From Candidatus Omnitrophota bacterium (GTDB lineage: Bacteria > Omnitrophota > Gorgyraeia > Gygaellales > Profunditerraquicolaceae), in the NCBI GenBank assembly GCA_028718225.1, contig JAQUMI010000006.1, positions 1-48,479 on the forward strand: a stretch of 48,479 nucleotides of DNA, in the 5' to 3' direction. Below the pieces are notes generated by a model, which saw nothing but the letters and a program-made list of their open reading frames with translations, was not told the DNA's origin and ran no database searches. Both the position numbers and the translations under genes were made by a program. This document shows positions 11,276-32,776 of the stretch, one piece after another (positions within the stretch are counted from its first letter, which is position 1; each line of letters begins with the position of its first letter).

Positions 11276-11298
11276 ACAAGATAGAAAGGATGTGCCTC

Positions 11299-12372
11299 AT
11301 GCTTAGCTCCAAAAAGTTTTATACTTTCTCTGTAACCCTTCTCCTTTTCTTTATCTCTCCCTGCATTCTCCTGGCTGAAGATACCCTGACCATCACTACC
11401 TACTATCCTTCTCCCTACGGAGTATACCGGGAGATGCGCGCTAAGCGCCTGGCCATAGGTGATAACTATATTGATAACAGTAACTATACCTGGGAGGAAT
11501 CAGACGGAGACGGAGGAGAGATTGACTACTTGGCTGACCTGGTAGTAGAGGGCAACGTCGGCATCGGGACGACGAATCCATATAGTAGAGTAGATGTTTT
11601 AACTACTACTGGTAATAAATATATAACTTTTAGAGCAGATAATGCAGAGCAAAGATTTAAATTTTATGTGGGTGCATCAGGTAACAATCCTGTTTTAACA
11701 ATGTATCAAGATGATGGTACAACTGAGGGAGTAGTATTAGCATCTGTTGGAAATTCTTATTTCAATGGCGGCAACGTGGGCATCGGCACGACCGCCCCCA
11801 GTTCAAGATTAACAGTTCAATCAAGCGGAGGGAGCACCTATCCGATTAAATTCTTAAATTCATCCGGGTACAGGATGGTAGAAGTCCATCAATATGATAC
11901 TGGTGAAGGGCTTTTGGCGCTTAGAGATGGTTCATCTACGGAAGTCTGTAATGTATATCTTAGAGGCAATGGCACAGCGGCTAAGCTTGGCGGAGGTTCC
12001 TGGTCGGATACCTCTGACCTTCGGCTAAAGAAGAATATTTCCGATCTTTCCGGTGCCCTGCAGGCTATTCTTTCTTTGCGTCCTGTTTCTTATGAATGGA
12101 TTAACCCTGAAGAGCACGCCGCAGGAGTGCATGCCGGATTAATTGCTCAAGAAGTAAAAGAAGTTTTTCCGCAATGGGTTACCAAAAATGCTCCTAAAGG
12201 CCCTGATAATAACCTGATCCCTAAAGGGGAGCAAGCCTACGAATTGTATTATCCGAGCGATTTTAATGCTTATCTTATTGGGGCTATCAAAGAACAGCAA
12301 AGCCAGATAGATGGTTTAAAGAAAAAAGTAGCCATATTAGAAGCAAAGCTTAACCCCGAGGAGAAAATATAA
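11299..12372 (+). CDS. Secreted surface protein with TTYYPSPYG segment and S74 intramolecular chaperone tail
   Basis: A 357-residue protein (360 if the ATG at 11290 is used; AGAAAGG at 11283-11289 fits 11299 better). A signal peptide ends near LLAED. Then come TITTYYPSPYGVYREMRAKR and GDNYID, a segment I associate with Omnitrophota exported proteins. The middle has two modules opening with GNVGIGTT. The C-terminal domain begins SDLRLKKNI (Ser near 239, Lys near 244) and continues LRPVSYEW and GLIAQEVKEVFP. This is the Peptidase_S74 chaperone known from phage tail fibres, which helps a trimeric fibre fold and can cut itself before the Ser. A terminal coiled coil (IKEQQSQIDGLKKKVAILEA) fits trimerisation. 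Role: probably a surface fibre or adhesin. Confidence 0.75.
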   Translation: MLSSKKFYTFSVTLLLFFISPCILLAEDTLTITTYYPSPYGVYREMRAKRLAIGDNYIDNSNYTWEESDGDGGEIDYLADLVVEGNVGIGTTNPYSRVDVLTTTGNKYITFRADNAEQRFKFYVGASGNNPVLTMYQDDGTTEGVVLASVGNSYFNGGNVGIGTTAPSSRLTVQSSGGSTYPIKFLNSSGYRMVEVHQYDTGEGLLALRDGSSTEVCNVYLRGNGTAAKLGGGSWSDTSDLRLKKNISDLSGALQAILSLRPVSYEWINPEEHAAGVHAGLIAQEVKEVFPQWVTKNAPKGPDNNLIPKGEQAYELYYPSDFNAYLIGAIKEQQSQIDGLKKKVAILEAKLNPEEKI

Positions 12373-12511: not shown

Positions 12512-12540
12512 TTGACAAATTTTATTTTTTTGTTTATAAT
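12512..12540 (+). promoter_or_regulatory. Consensus sigma-70-type promoter of the HTH gene
   Basis: TTGACA (12512-12517), a 17-base AT-rich spacer, then TATAAT (12535-12540): both hexamers match the consensus exactly. The expected transcription start is about 12547, practically on the ATG at 12548. Confidence 0.85.
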
Positions 12541-12547
12541 GCACCCA

Positions 12548-12727
12548 ATGATTAACAGCGGATTAATGACTATTGAGGATTTAGCGGATTACCTGAAGGT
12601 TACCCGGCGCACTATCTACGATTGGCTCAAGCATAATAAGATACCTGCGCTTAAGCTTGTCGGGCAGTGGCGCTTTAAAAAAGATAAGATTGATGCCTGG
12701 TTAGAAAACCAATCTCAACCTCATTAA
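12548..12727 (+). CDS. Excisionase-type (MerR-like) helix-turn-helix DNA-binding protein
   Basis: A 59-residue protein made of one winged-helix domain of the 'DNA binding domain, excisionase family': MTIEDLADYLKVTRRTIYDW, then IPALKLVGQWRFKKDKIDAW. It has no partner domain. The ATG at 12548 lies 8 bases after the -10 box and would make the message leaderless. An ATG at 12566 is the other candidate; it matches the usual start of the domain and would leave about 19 bases of leader without a clear Shine-Dalgarno site. No integrase or phage gene is nearby, so it is more likely a small regulator, perhaps of smc 42 bases downstream or of itself. Confidence 0.75.
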   Translation: MINSGLMTIEDLADYLKVTRRTIYDWLKHNKIPALKLVGQWRFKKDKIDAWLENQSQPH

Positions 12728-17249: not shown

Positions 17250-17681
17250 TTAAGGAGTACAGGTAGAGTAATAGTCAGTCCCCGTGGCCATACAGATGCA
17301 ATAAGTGCATCCATTTGACCGTTTGTAGGCGCACGTGTACCAATCAGGCGTACAAGGTGCCGCTCCTGCTTGGCCCATAGCGTAGTACCAGGTCGGGCAG
17401 CCTGGGTAGGCCTGGCTTGTAATAGTGTCTCCATCAACAATCACGGTAATGGGAAAATCGCTGGTATAAGTGCCATAAACCGCATAAAAGGCCAACTGCG
17501 CCCGTCTTATGGCGTCCAGGTTGCTAAGGGCATGTGATTTTTGAGCCTTAGCTACATTGGTAAAATAGCGGGGTATAGCGACAAGAGCGAGGATACCGAT
17601 AATTACTACAACAATAATCAGTTCAATAAGAGTGAAACCGTGTTTTTTCCCTGAAAGAATATTTTTAGGGGTTAAGGGCAT
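17250..17681 (-). CDS. Type IV pilin-like protein (first copy)
   Basis: A 143-residue prepilin. The leader ends at Gly 15, followed by FTLIELIIVVVIIGILALVA. This is the classic prepilin peptidase site with Glu at mature position 5 and a hydrophobic stalk helix. The globular part carries AVYGTYTSDFPITVIVDGDT and several cysteines, ending STCTP. A related gene with the same plan lies at 35467-35877. Neither is next to pilus assembly genes, so it may be a major pilin-like or pseudopilin subunit assembled by machinery encoded elsewhere. There is no clear Shine-Dalgarno site before the ATG. Confidence 0.85.
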   Translation of the reverse strand: MPLTPKNILSGKKHGFTLIELIIVVVIIGILALVAIPRYFTNVAKAQKSHALSNLDAIRRAQLAFYAVYGTYTSDFPITVIVDGDTITSQAYPGCPTWYYAMGQAGAAPCTPDWYTCAYKRSNGCTYCICMATGTDYYSTCTP

Positions 17682-30868: not shown

Positions 30869-32776
30869 ATGTTTAAATCCCTGAAACTATACTCAGGGTT
30901 AAAGGTTGATCTGGAACAACTGTTGGGCGAGCTGGTTGGTTTTGGCTATAAAAGGCAGGACGCTGTTTTAGCCGAAGGTGATTTTTCCCGCCGCGGCGGT
31001 TTAATCGATATCTTTCCGAATTCCTTTGAATTACCCATCCGCGTAGAGCTAAACGATAATCTAATATCTGCAATTAGGACTTTTAACCCTTCTACGGGCG
31101 AACCGCTTTGGGCCCACCGGATAGTTATTATCCTGCCGGTCAGGAAAACCGGCAGCCTAAAGACCACGCCGATTACCGAAGATTTCCCGCTTTCTAATTT
31201 TCTGGATTTAAATATCGGCGATTATGTCGTGCATAATCAGCATGGCATAGGTAAATTTTTGGGCCTGCATAAAATCAAGATCCAGGATAAATATAAAGAT
31301 CATCTGGTTATTGAGTATGACCGCCAGGAAAAACTTTATGTACCGGTTGAATCAATGCACCTGGTGCAGAAGTATATCGCTTTTCACATCCGGCGGCCAA
31401 AGCTTTACAAGCTGGGGGGCAAGGAGTGGTCCAGAGCCAAGGAACGGGCGCGCAGGGGGATCCAAAAGATGGCCTGGGACTTGTTGAGCTTGCAGGCAAT
31501 GCGTGCCAGCGCCAAGGGTTTTACCTATTCTAAGGATACGGATTGGCAGGTCCAATTTGAAGAGAGCTTTCCTTATAAAGAGACGCCTGACCAGACAAAA
31601 GTTACTTTAGAGGTAAAACAGGATATGGAATCCGGAAAACTGATGGACCGCTTGCTCTGCGGGGACGTAGGTTATGGCAAGACTGAAGTTGCCATGCGCG
31701 CGGCTTTTAAATGCCTGATGGATAATAAGCAGGTTGCTTACCTGGTTCCGACAACAATTTTAGCCGAACAGCACTACCATAATTTCAGTTCCCGGCTTAA
31801 GGATTTTCCAGTCAATATCCAGCTCCTTTGCCGCTTTAAGACCCAGGTTGAACAGAAAAAAATTGTCGAAGGGCTAAAGCAGGGTTCAGTTGACCTGGTT
31901 ATCGGTACGCATAGAATGCTCTCGGATGACGTGTCTTTTAAGGACTTAGGCCTGGTAATTATTGATGAAGAACAGCGTTTCGGAGTAAAACATAAAGAGA
32001 AGCTGAAGAAAATCCGCCTTTTAACCAATGTGCTTACCTTGACGGCAACGCCTATCCCCAGAACTTTATATATGAGCTTGATGGGTGCCCGCGACTTATC
32101 GGTGATTAATACCCCGCCGCAAAATAGGTTGCCTATCAAGACGATTGTGGTAGAATATGACCAAGACTTAGTCCGCCAGGCTATTTTAAGAGAGGTAGAG
32201 AGAGGCGGCCAGGTATTCTTCCTGCATAATCGTATAGAGGATATTGAAAAAGTAAAGGAGAGGCTGGGAAAAGTTTTGCCTCAAGGCTTACGCCTGGCCA
32301 TAGGGCATGGGCAGATGCACCCTAAGGAACTGGAAGCTGTTATGTCCGGATTCCTGGAAGGTAAACTTGATTGCCTGATTTCCACGATGATTATTGAATC
32401 CGGGATTGATATCCCCAACGCCAATACTATAATCGTGGATAATGCGCATACTTTCGGTTTATCGGATTTACACCAGTTGCGCGGGAGGGTAGGCCGGTTT
32501 AACCGGGCTGCCTACGCTTATTTTATGGTCCCCAAAAATTTAGTGTTGGAAAAAGACAGCCGCAAGAGGTTAAACGCTATCCAGGATTATGCCTCGCTTG
32601 GCGCCGGATTTAATATTGCGATGGAGGATTTGGAGATCCGGGGCGCGGGCAACTTGCTGGGGATGCAACAGCATGGTTTTATTGCTACGGTGGGTTTTGA
32701 CCTTTATTGCCGGTTATTAAGAGAAGCAATCGATGCTTTTAAAAAGACAGGAGTATTTAATGAAGCGCACAATTAA
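30869..32776 (+). CDS. mfd: Short Mfd-type DNA translocase (lacks the N-terminal UvrB-like part and the C-terminal domain)
   Basis: A 635-residue protein against about 1150 for usual Mfd. It opens within the Mfd domain 1 region (GYKRQDAVLAEGDFSRRGGL, near 26-45). The RNA-polymerase-binding CarD-like domain is intact (near 113-175, IGDYVVHNQHGIGKFLGL, KLYVPVESMHLVQKY). The RecG-like motor follows: Walker A GDVGYGKTE near 265-273, DEEQRFGVKHKE near 366-377, LTATPIPRTL, TMIIESGIDIPNANT, QLRGRVGR and LEIRGAGNLLGMQQHG. It stops soon after, so domain 7 is missing, as are the UvrA-binding parts of domains 1-3. Six bases separate it from secDF, whose frame is complete, so no upstream remnant exists. 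Confidence 0.85.
   Translation: MFKSLKLYSGLKVDLEQLLGELVGFGYKRQDAVLAEGDFSRRGGLIDIFPNSFELPIRVELNDNLISAIRTFNPSTGEPLWAHRIVIILPVRKTGSLKTTPITEDFPLSNFLDLNIGDYVVHNQHGIGKFLGLHKIKIQDKYKDHLVIEYDRQEKLYVPVESMHLVQKYIAFHIRRPKLYKLGGKEWSRAKERARRGIQKMAWDLLSLQAMRASAKGFTYSKDTDWQVQFEESFPYKETPDQTKVTLEVKQDMESGKLMDRLLCGDVGYGKTEVAMRAAFKCLMDNKQVAYLVPTTILAEQHYHNFSSRLKDFPVNIQLLCRFKTQVEQKKIVEGLKQGSVDLVIGTHRMLSDDVSFKDLGLVIIDEEQRFGVKHKEKLKKIRLLTNVLTLTATPIPRTLYMSLMGARDLSVINTPPQNRLPIKTIVVEYDQDLVRQAILREVERGGQVFFLHNRIEDIEKVKERLGKVLPQGLRLAIGHGQMHPKELEAVMSGFLEGKLDCLISTMIIESGIDIPNANTIIVDNAHTFGLSDLHQLRGRVGRFNRAAYAYFMVPKNLVLEKDSRKRLNAIQDYASLGAGFNIAMEDLEIRGAGNLLGMQQHGFIATVGFDLYCRLLREAIDAFKKTGVFNEAHN

Follow-up and report, generated by a model that had tools for sequence, protein, structure and literature searches.

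The window, the whole stretch of 48,479 nucleotides from an Omnitrophota contig that was analysed, contains a fibre gene on the forward strand encoding a protein of 357 amino acids plus stop. The open reading frame was confirmed at 11299-12372 and comprises the parts listed in the sequence-only reading, i.e. a signal peptide, the segment EDTLTITTYYPSPYGVYREMR with the TTYYPSPYG head, two GNVGIGTT modules and a C-terminal S74 domain with the SDxRxK motif (here SDLRLK). An alternative in-frame ATG upstream at 11290 would give a product of 360 amino acids. The start at 11299 (MLSSKK...) is to be preferred, as AAGGA is found 8 nt ahead of it and as in a congener the copy that follows aroB begins with MLRLSK. 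The predicted signal peptide MLSSKKFYTFSVTLLLFFISPCILLA (11299-11376, forward strand) has a hydrophobic core and a predicted cleavage site before EDT; the Ala at position -1 is at least 90% conserved in alignment A2, and an AlphaFold model shows a helix at residues 7-27 of the N-terminus. The conserved head EDTLTITTYYPSPYGVYREMRAK (11377-11445, forward strand) follows at the predicted mature N-terminus, where also EDTLTITTYYPSPYGVY sits; the peptide EDTLTITTYYPSPYGVYR is the beginning of the predicted mature protein, and TITTYYPSPYGVYREMR is located at 11389-11439. The capping-loop motif of the stalk, VGIGTTxPxxxL, is present in two copies (VGIGTTNPYSRV and VGIGTTAPSSRL), the corresponding stalk modules being GNVGIGTTNPYSRVDV (11551-11598) and GNVGIGTTAPSSRLTV (11767-11814), both on the forward strand.

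The protein ends with an S74 intramolecular chaperone of 119 amino acids (12013-12369, forward strand), identified both by its fold and by its match to Pfam PF13884 (E=4e-18, 65.9 bits against a curated cut-off of 22). SDLRLK occupies 12013-12030, the catalytic Ser being the first residue of the S74 domain and the Lys lying five residues on, and self-cleavage of the protein is predicted to occur just before 12013. Both residues are retained in 32 of the 32 S74 relatives which could be aligned using our own S74 profile (one further match, lacking the catalytic part of the alignment, falls outside the 32); the catalytic pair has not been lost in these relatives. In the AlphaFold model, built as a monomer on the 32-sequence alignment, the S74 domain has a pLDDT of about 84-97 over the greater part of its length, with one dip to 61-70, while the stalk is of low confidence (about 42-70). 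Foldseek matches the model to the MyRF ICA (7dc3_B of 7dc3; E=2.1e-5, TMt 0.72) and to the endosialidase-type chaperone 3gw6 (E=4e-4).

The fibre gene starts 23 nt behind aroB and is followed by an excisionase-like HTH gene and then by SMC. No phage structural genes were found among the flanking genes checked (aroB, M50 protease, SH3, SPOR, SMC, GGDEF, RecA, alaS, SecDF and others), in agreement with the earlier observation that no phage gene is nearby. The HTH gene, at 12512-12727 (forward strand), encodes a short HTH_17/excisionase-like protein. Elsewhere in the window, a 635-aa protein with UvrB-interaction, CarD/RID and helicase domains (30869-32776, forward strand) resembles the transcription-repair coupling factor Mfd, and a type IV pilin-like protein with an N-terminal methylation motif is encoded at 17250-17681 (reverse strand).

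As the sequence-only reading had proposed, Omnitrophota were searched for the head and the attached domains were recorded. A 74-aa head query matched in 193 of 384 Omnitrophota genomes, with up to 17 matches in a single genome. Different tips follow the head in its family, namely S74, C1q, Gp34-type, Hint or unrecognised ones. The window's own genome contains a second copy (contig C39), its head being 86% identical and S74 lacking. A DNA pattern for TTYYP[SA]P[YF]G was also run against the GTDB genome collection and matched at least 113 stretches; among the matches listed, counted by hand, 80 are Omnitrophota (including Aceula), 25 are Elusimicrobia/Elusimicrobiota and eight have no phylum name. 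The head can therefore not be regarded as a motif of one phylum, as had been supposed, since Elusimicrobiota carry it too. It is, as far as the matches listed go, neither spread over unrelated phyla nor found at varying positions: all named carriers are Omnitrophota or Elusimicrobiota, and in all 127 motif-bearing open reading frames the motif follows a hydrophobic leader close to the N-terminus. As the collection holds at least 113 stretches, other phyla may include rare carriers beyond the matches listed. The pattern holds about 37 bits, by which some four random matches are estimated for 2 x 257 Gb; compared with at least 113 stretches and 127 reading frames, all N-terminal with a leader, this excludes chance. 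Flanking positions which the search did not fix are likewise conserved among 176 distinct sequences (E/D at -6, T at -3, Y at +9 and L/M at +12), and the consensus of the family is E-[TS]-[IL]-T-[IL]-T-T-Y-Y-P-[SA]-P-[YF]-G-x-Y-x-x-[LM].

The modules behind the head are diverse. A Pfam scan of 139 members recognised S74 in 33, C1q in two, a glycine-rich tip in two and Gp34_trimer, Peptidase_G2 and Hint/intein in one each, the remainder having no recognised tip, and the full stalk motif VGI[GN]xxxPxxxL is found in 99 of the 139. The Hint/intein-splicing match, in one head protein of alignment A1, represents a different self-processing module, and in L034, L080, L083, L113 and others an EF-hand-like or dockerin-like segment follows the head (e.g. 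GVGDNNGNGVLDSGDVP). Within the genus, an S74 domain is part of a head gene in every case in which the start is on the contig; two S74 copies (G104 C3 and G310 C40) are situated near contig ends, and heads are not seen there. A head gene is present behind aroB in G310 as well, encoding 212 aa and no S74, so that the tips of the copies at this position differ between G310 and the window species, whose copy carries S74. No head gene was found behind aroB in G102, G104, G216, G369 and G081. In G104, heads identical in DNA are attached to different tails (100% over 121 bp and over 86 bp), suggesting that they have recombined or were copied recently.

As the head is the only segment common to all members, it most likely constitutes the base of the fibre or a sorting or anchoring element, and its position and conservation make a role as a sorting or anchoring signal plausible. 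Neither a lipobox cysteine (0 of 139) nor a Pfam match to a C-terminal YadA-type anchor was found in the 139 members, by which the head was rejected as part of a lipobox or of a trimeric autotransporter. Neither an outer-membrane anchor nor a dedicated exporter came to light, and surface display is accordingly a prediction. Literature searches returned no paper containing the head motif.

In relatives belonging to the genus and order of the window species, many head genes carry tracts of (CT)7-18 between the start codon and the signal-peptide core. Tracts of (CT)7 or more occur at six places in G104 (UBA6233), three in G310, one in G349 and seven in G407 (STD1_202), and 17 of 17 coincide with the start of a head gene: in 12 cases the contig includes the head, and the other five are at contig ends, where the start region matches. 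Three of the latter (G407) run on into the same signal-peptide sequence, while those on G104 C16 and C18 end inside the tract, following the same Shine-Dalgarno and start layout. As the sequence on G104 C16 corresponds to the upstream half of the gene on C38, the 17 places represent at most 16 genes. For a rough chance figure, 17 heads x 200 bp correspond to 0.2% of the G104 genome. Nine of the CT genes have a clear Shine-Dalgarno sequence and start: eight are out of frame, with both wrong frames represented, and one (L064) is in frame. Where an out-of-frame tail is complete, its reading frame stays free of stops over some 340-560 aa; S74 is encoded in several of these genes. The tract of one orthologous locus, whose flanks are 88% identical over 4.7 kb, is (CT)15 in STD1_202 and (CT)10 in UBA6233; the length differs at a second orthologous locus too, though there a contig end cuts one of the tracts. 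A poly-C8 gene in G173 is likewise out of frame, and in the assemblies almost every tract gene is in the off state. The sequences themselves show the tracts, the out-of-frame starts followed by open frames and the length difference between orthologues, and the simplest account of the tracts in the relatives would be slipped-strand mispairing as in Opa.

The window gene itself contains no repeat tract, so any switching concerns its relatives. No CT7 tract was found in the window genome (G000), although this genome is 83% complete and assemblies are prone to break at genes with such tracts. CT tracts were rejected as a general feature of the family, as three of the four genomes of the family outside the genus which have a (CT)8 tract carry it away from head genes; the link between tract and head is therefore specific to some lineages. 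A head gene of another genus of the family (L249, G386:C20) has (CT)8 together with a T7 run, the frame breaking near T7. Seven to nine G are found near the head-gene start codons of L124, L136 and L143 (Elusimicrobiota or without phylum name) and of L085 (Omnitrophota), possibly affecting translation. Such poly-T and poly-G runs near head-gene starts were set aside as evidence. Literature searches returned no report of phase variation in Omnitrophota.

The sequence-only reading, which knew of no described system built in this way, had overlooked a precedent in the mosaic adhesive trimer (MAT) fibres of Bdellovibrio bacteriovorus (PMC10769870). MAT fibres are exported, stalked, S74-processed and cellular, and S74 autoproteolysis has been demonstrated for one of them, Bd3182 (PMC10769870). 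They work in a similar way and demonstrate that cells do possess exported S74 fibres. The likeness extends to the signal peptide, the capping-loop beta-helix stalk and the C-terminal S74 (SDxxxK) or other tips; alternative MAT tips include C1q/TNF-like domains, and the head family has S74 in 33 and C1q in two of 139 members. A stretch similar to the stalk motif of the window protein is found in MAT bd2133 and in MyRF. The MyRF ICA (7dc3) shares the S74 fold and a capping loop, VGINTxxPxxxL, ahead of S74, but belongs to a eukaryotic membrane-bound transcription factor. Phage S74 fibres and chaperones (endosialidase 3gw6, the T5 L-shaped fibre) have in common with the window protein the S74 fold, the arrangement of Ser and Lys and the stalk motif, and lack its signal peptide and head. 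As for the tracts, CTCTT repeats in the signal-peptide codons of Neisseria opa genes shift the reading frame (PMC3960869), and the relatives resemble Opa in having multi-copy, putatively surface-exposed proteins with frame-altering repeats in signal-peptide codons, by which switching would be possible. They differ in that the repeats are CT dinucleotides and the fold is unrelated, and the window copy has no tract.

The order shared with MAT fibres (signal peptide, N-terminal part, capping-loop beta-helix stalk, S74 or other tips), together with the predation linked to both groups, raises the question whether the window protein is a direct member of the Bdellovibrio family, in which case its head would be a shortened MAT N-domain. 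With a length of about 1000 aa, MATs have a conserved beta-rich domain of ~130 aa directly behind the signal peptide (PMC10769870), whereas the window protein comprises 357 aa, begins with a short TTYYPSPYG head and has only about 58 residues ahead of its first stalk motif. The available part of the MAT description mentions neither Omnitrophota nor CT-tract switching. Lacking the ~130 aa N-terminal domain, the protein is not claimed as a MAT member, and we regard direct membership as unlikely. A cytoplasmically assembled tail fibre, domesticated or surviving as a remnant from a phage or contractile injection system, would be suggested by the resemblance of S74 and stalk to tail fibres (best match phrog_5668, E=3.5e-22; 245 phage records match, below 60% identity). 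However, every member has a leader peptide and an N-terminal head, many paralogues are spread across chromosomes, the neighbours checked include no phage structural genes and the head motif is absent from IMG/VR. On account of the last two findings a phage origin of the gene was rejected, and the tail-fibre explanation as a whole is largely refuted and very improbable.

Two further explanations concern the parts which are new here. The alternating Thr/Ile-Leu pattern of the head (T-[IL]-T-[IL]-T-T-Y-Y) would suit an edge strand, and, no anchor having been identified, the head could be structural only, e.g. joining subunits or nucleating the stalk, and no signal at all, the proteins being periplasmic or freely secreted. 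This deserves some weight but is rather unlikely, as every member carries the head at its predicted mature N-terminus and the modules that follow differ greatly. The CT tracts, for their part, could be assembly artefacts or marks of decaying genes, given that they are often at contig ends and that eight of the nine resolvable genes are out of frame. Yet they recur in independent assemblies (UBA6233, STD1_202, G310 and G349), in these assemblies at one position and in one gene family only, the downstream frames stay open across hundreds of codons, both wrong frames occur and one gene is in frame; that the tracts are something other than switches is accordingly quite doubtful.

The reading that we prefer, and hold to be probable, is that the window gene encodes a short exported trimeric fibre, self-trimmed by S74, of a cellular family defined by the TYYP head, and that many paralogues in the genus and order would be switchable. 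Of the earlier proposal of a cellular trimeric fibre maturing after export, the cellular, exported and fibre-like character and the intact chaperone find support, while trimerisation and cleavage are predictions. Removal of a Sec signal peptide would make the strand EDTLTITTYYPSPYGVY the N-terminus, the middle part would fold as a trimeric beta-helix, a short stalk with VGIGTTxPxxxL loops as its caps, and S74 would guide trimerisation and then cut itself off before its own Ser, exposing a tip whose target is probably another cell or surface. Across the family the head would be constant and the tip interchangeable. Many paralogues of the genus and order have (CT)n in their signal-peptide codons, where slipped-strand changes would turn fibres individually on or off; the window copy, having no tract, would be constitutive. 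The head, the leader-like N-terminus, the stalk motifs, the intact S74 and the variety of tips are seen in the sequences; the route of export, anchoring, the trimer, its surface location and adhesion are what we infer. The wider proposition, that TxTTYYP[SA]PYGxY marks a new export or anchoring class with many tips in Omnitrophota and Elusimicrobiota, and that some Omnitrophota repertoires are CT phase-variable, strikes us as evenly balanced.

The plan of an exported S74 fibre is thus already known, and what is new is the head across two phyla and the CT tracts in relatives. A large head family with interchangeable tips, and close relatives which appear phase-variable via CT tracts, had been missed in the sequence-only reading. 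Omnitrophota are uncultured and very small, and many are suspected to be predators or parasites of other cells (PMC10066038), which makes adhesion a reasonable function for TYYP-head fibres. Head-tagged fibres with exchangeable tips, present in about half of the sampled genomes, are concrete candidates for attachment in Omnitrophota. If switching is true, the CT tracts would allow single cells to display different fibres and thereby a changeable attachment set, i.e. an Opa-like switching of phage-type fibres in a phylum suspected of predation, and this can be checked in existing metagenome reads without cultivation.
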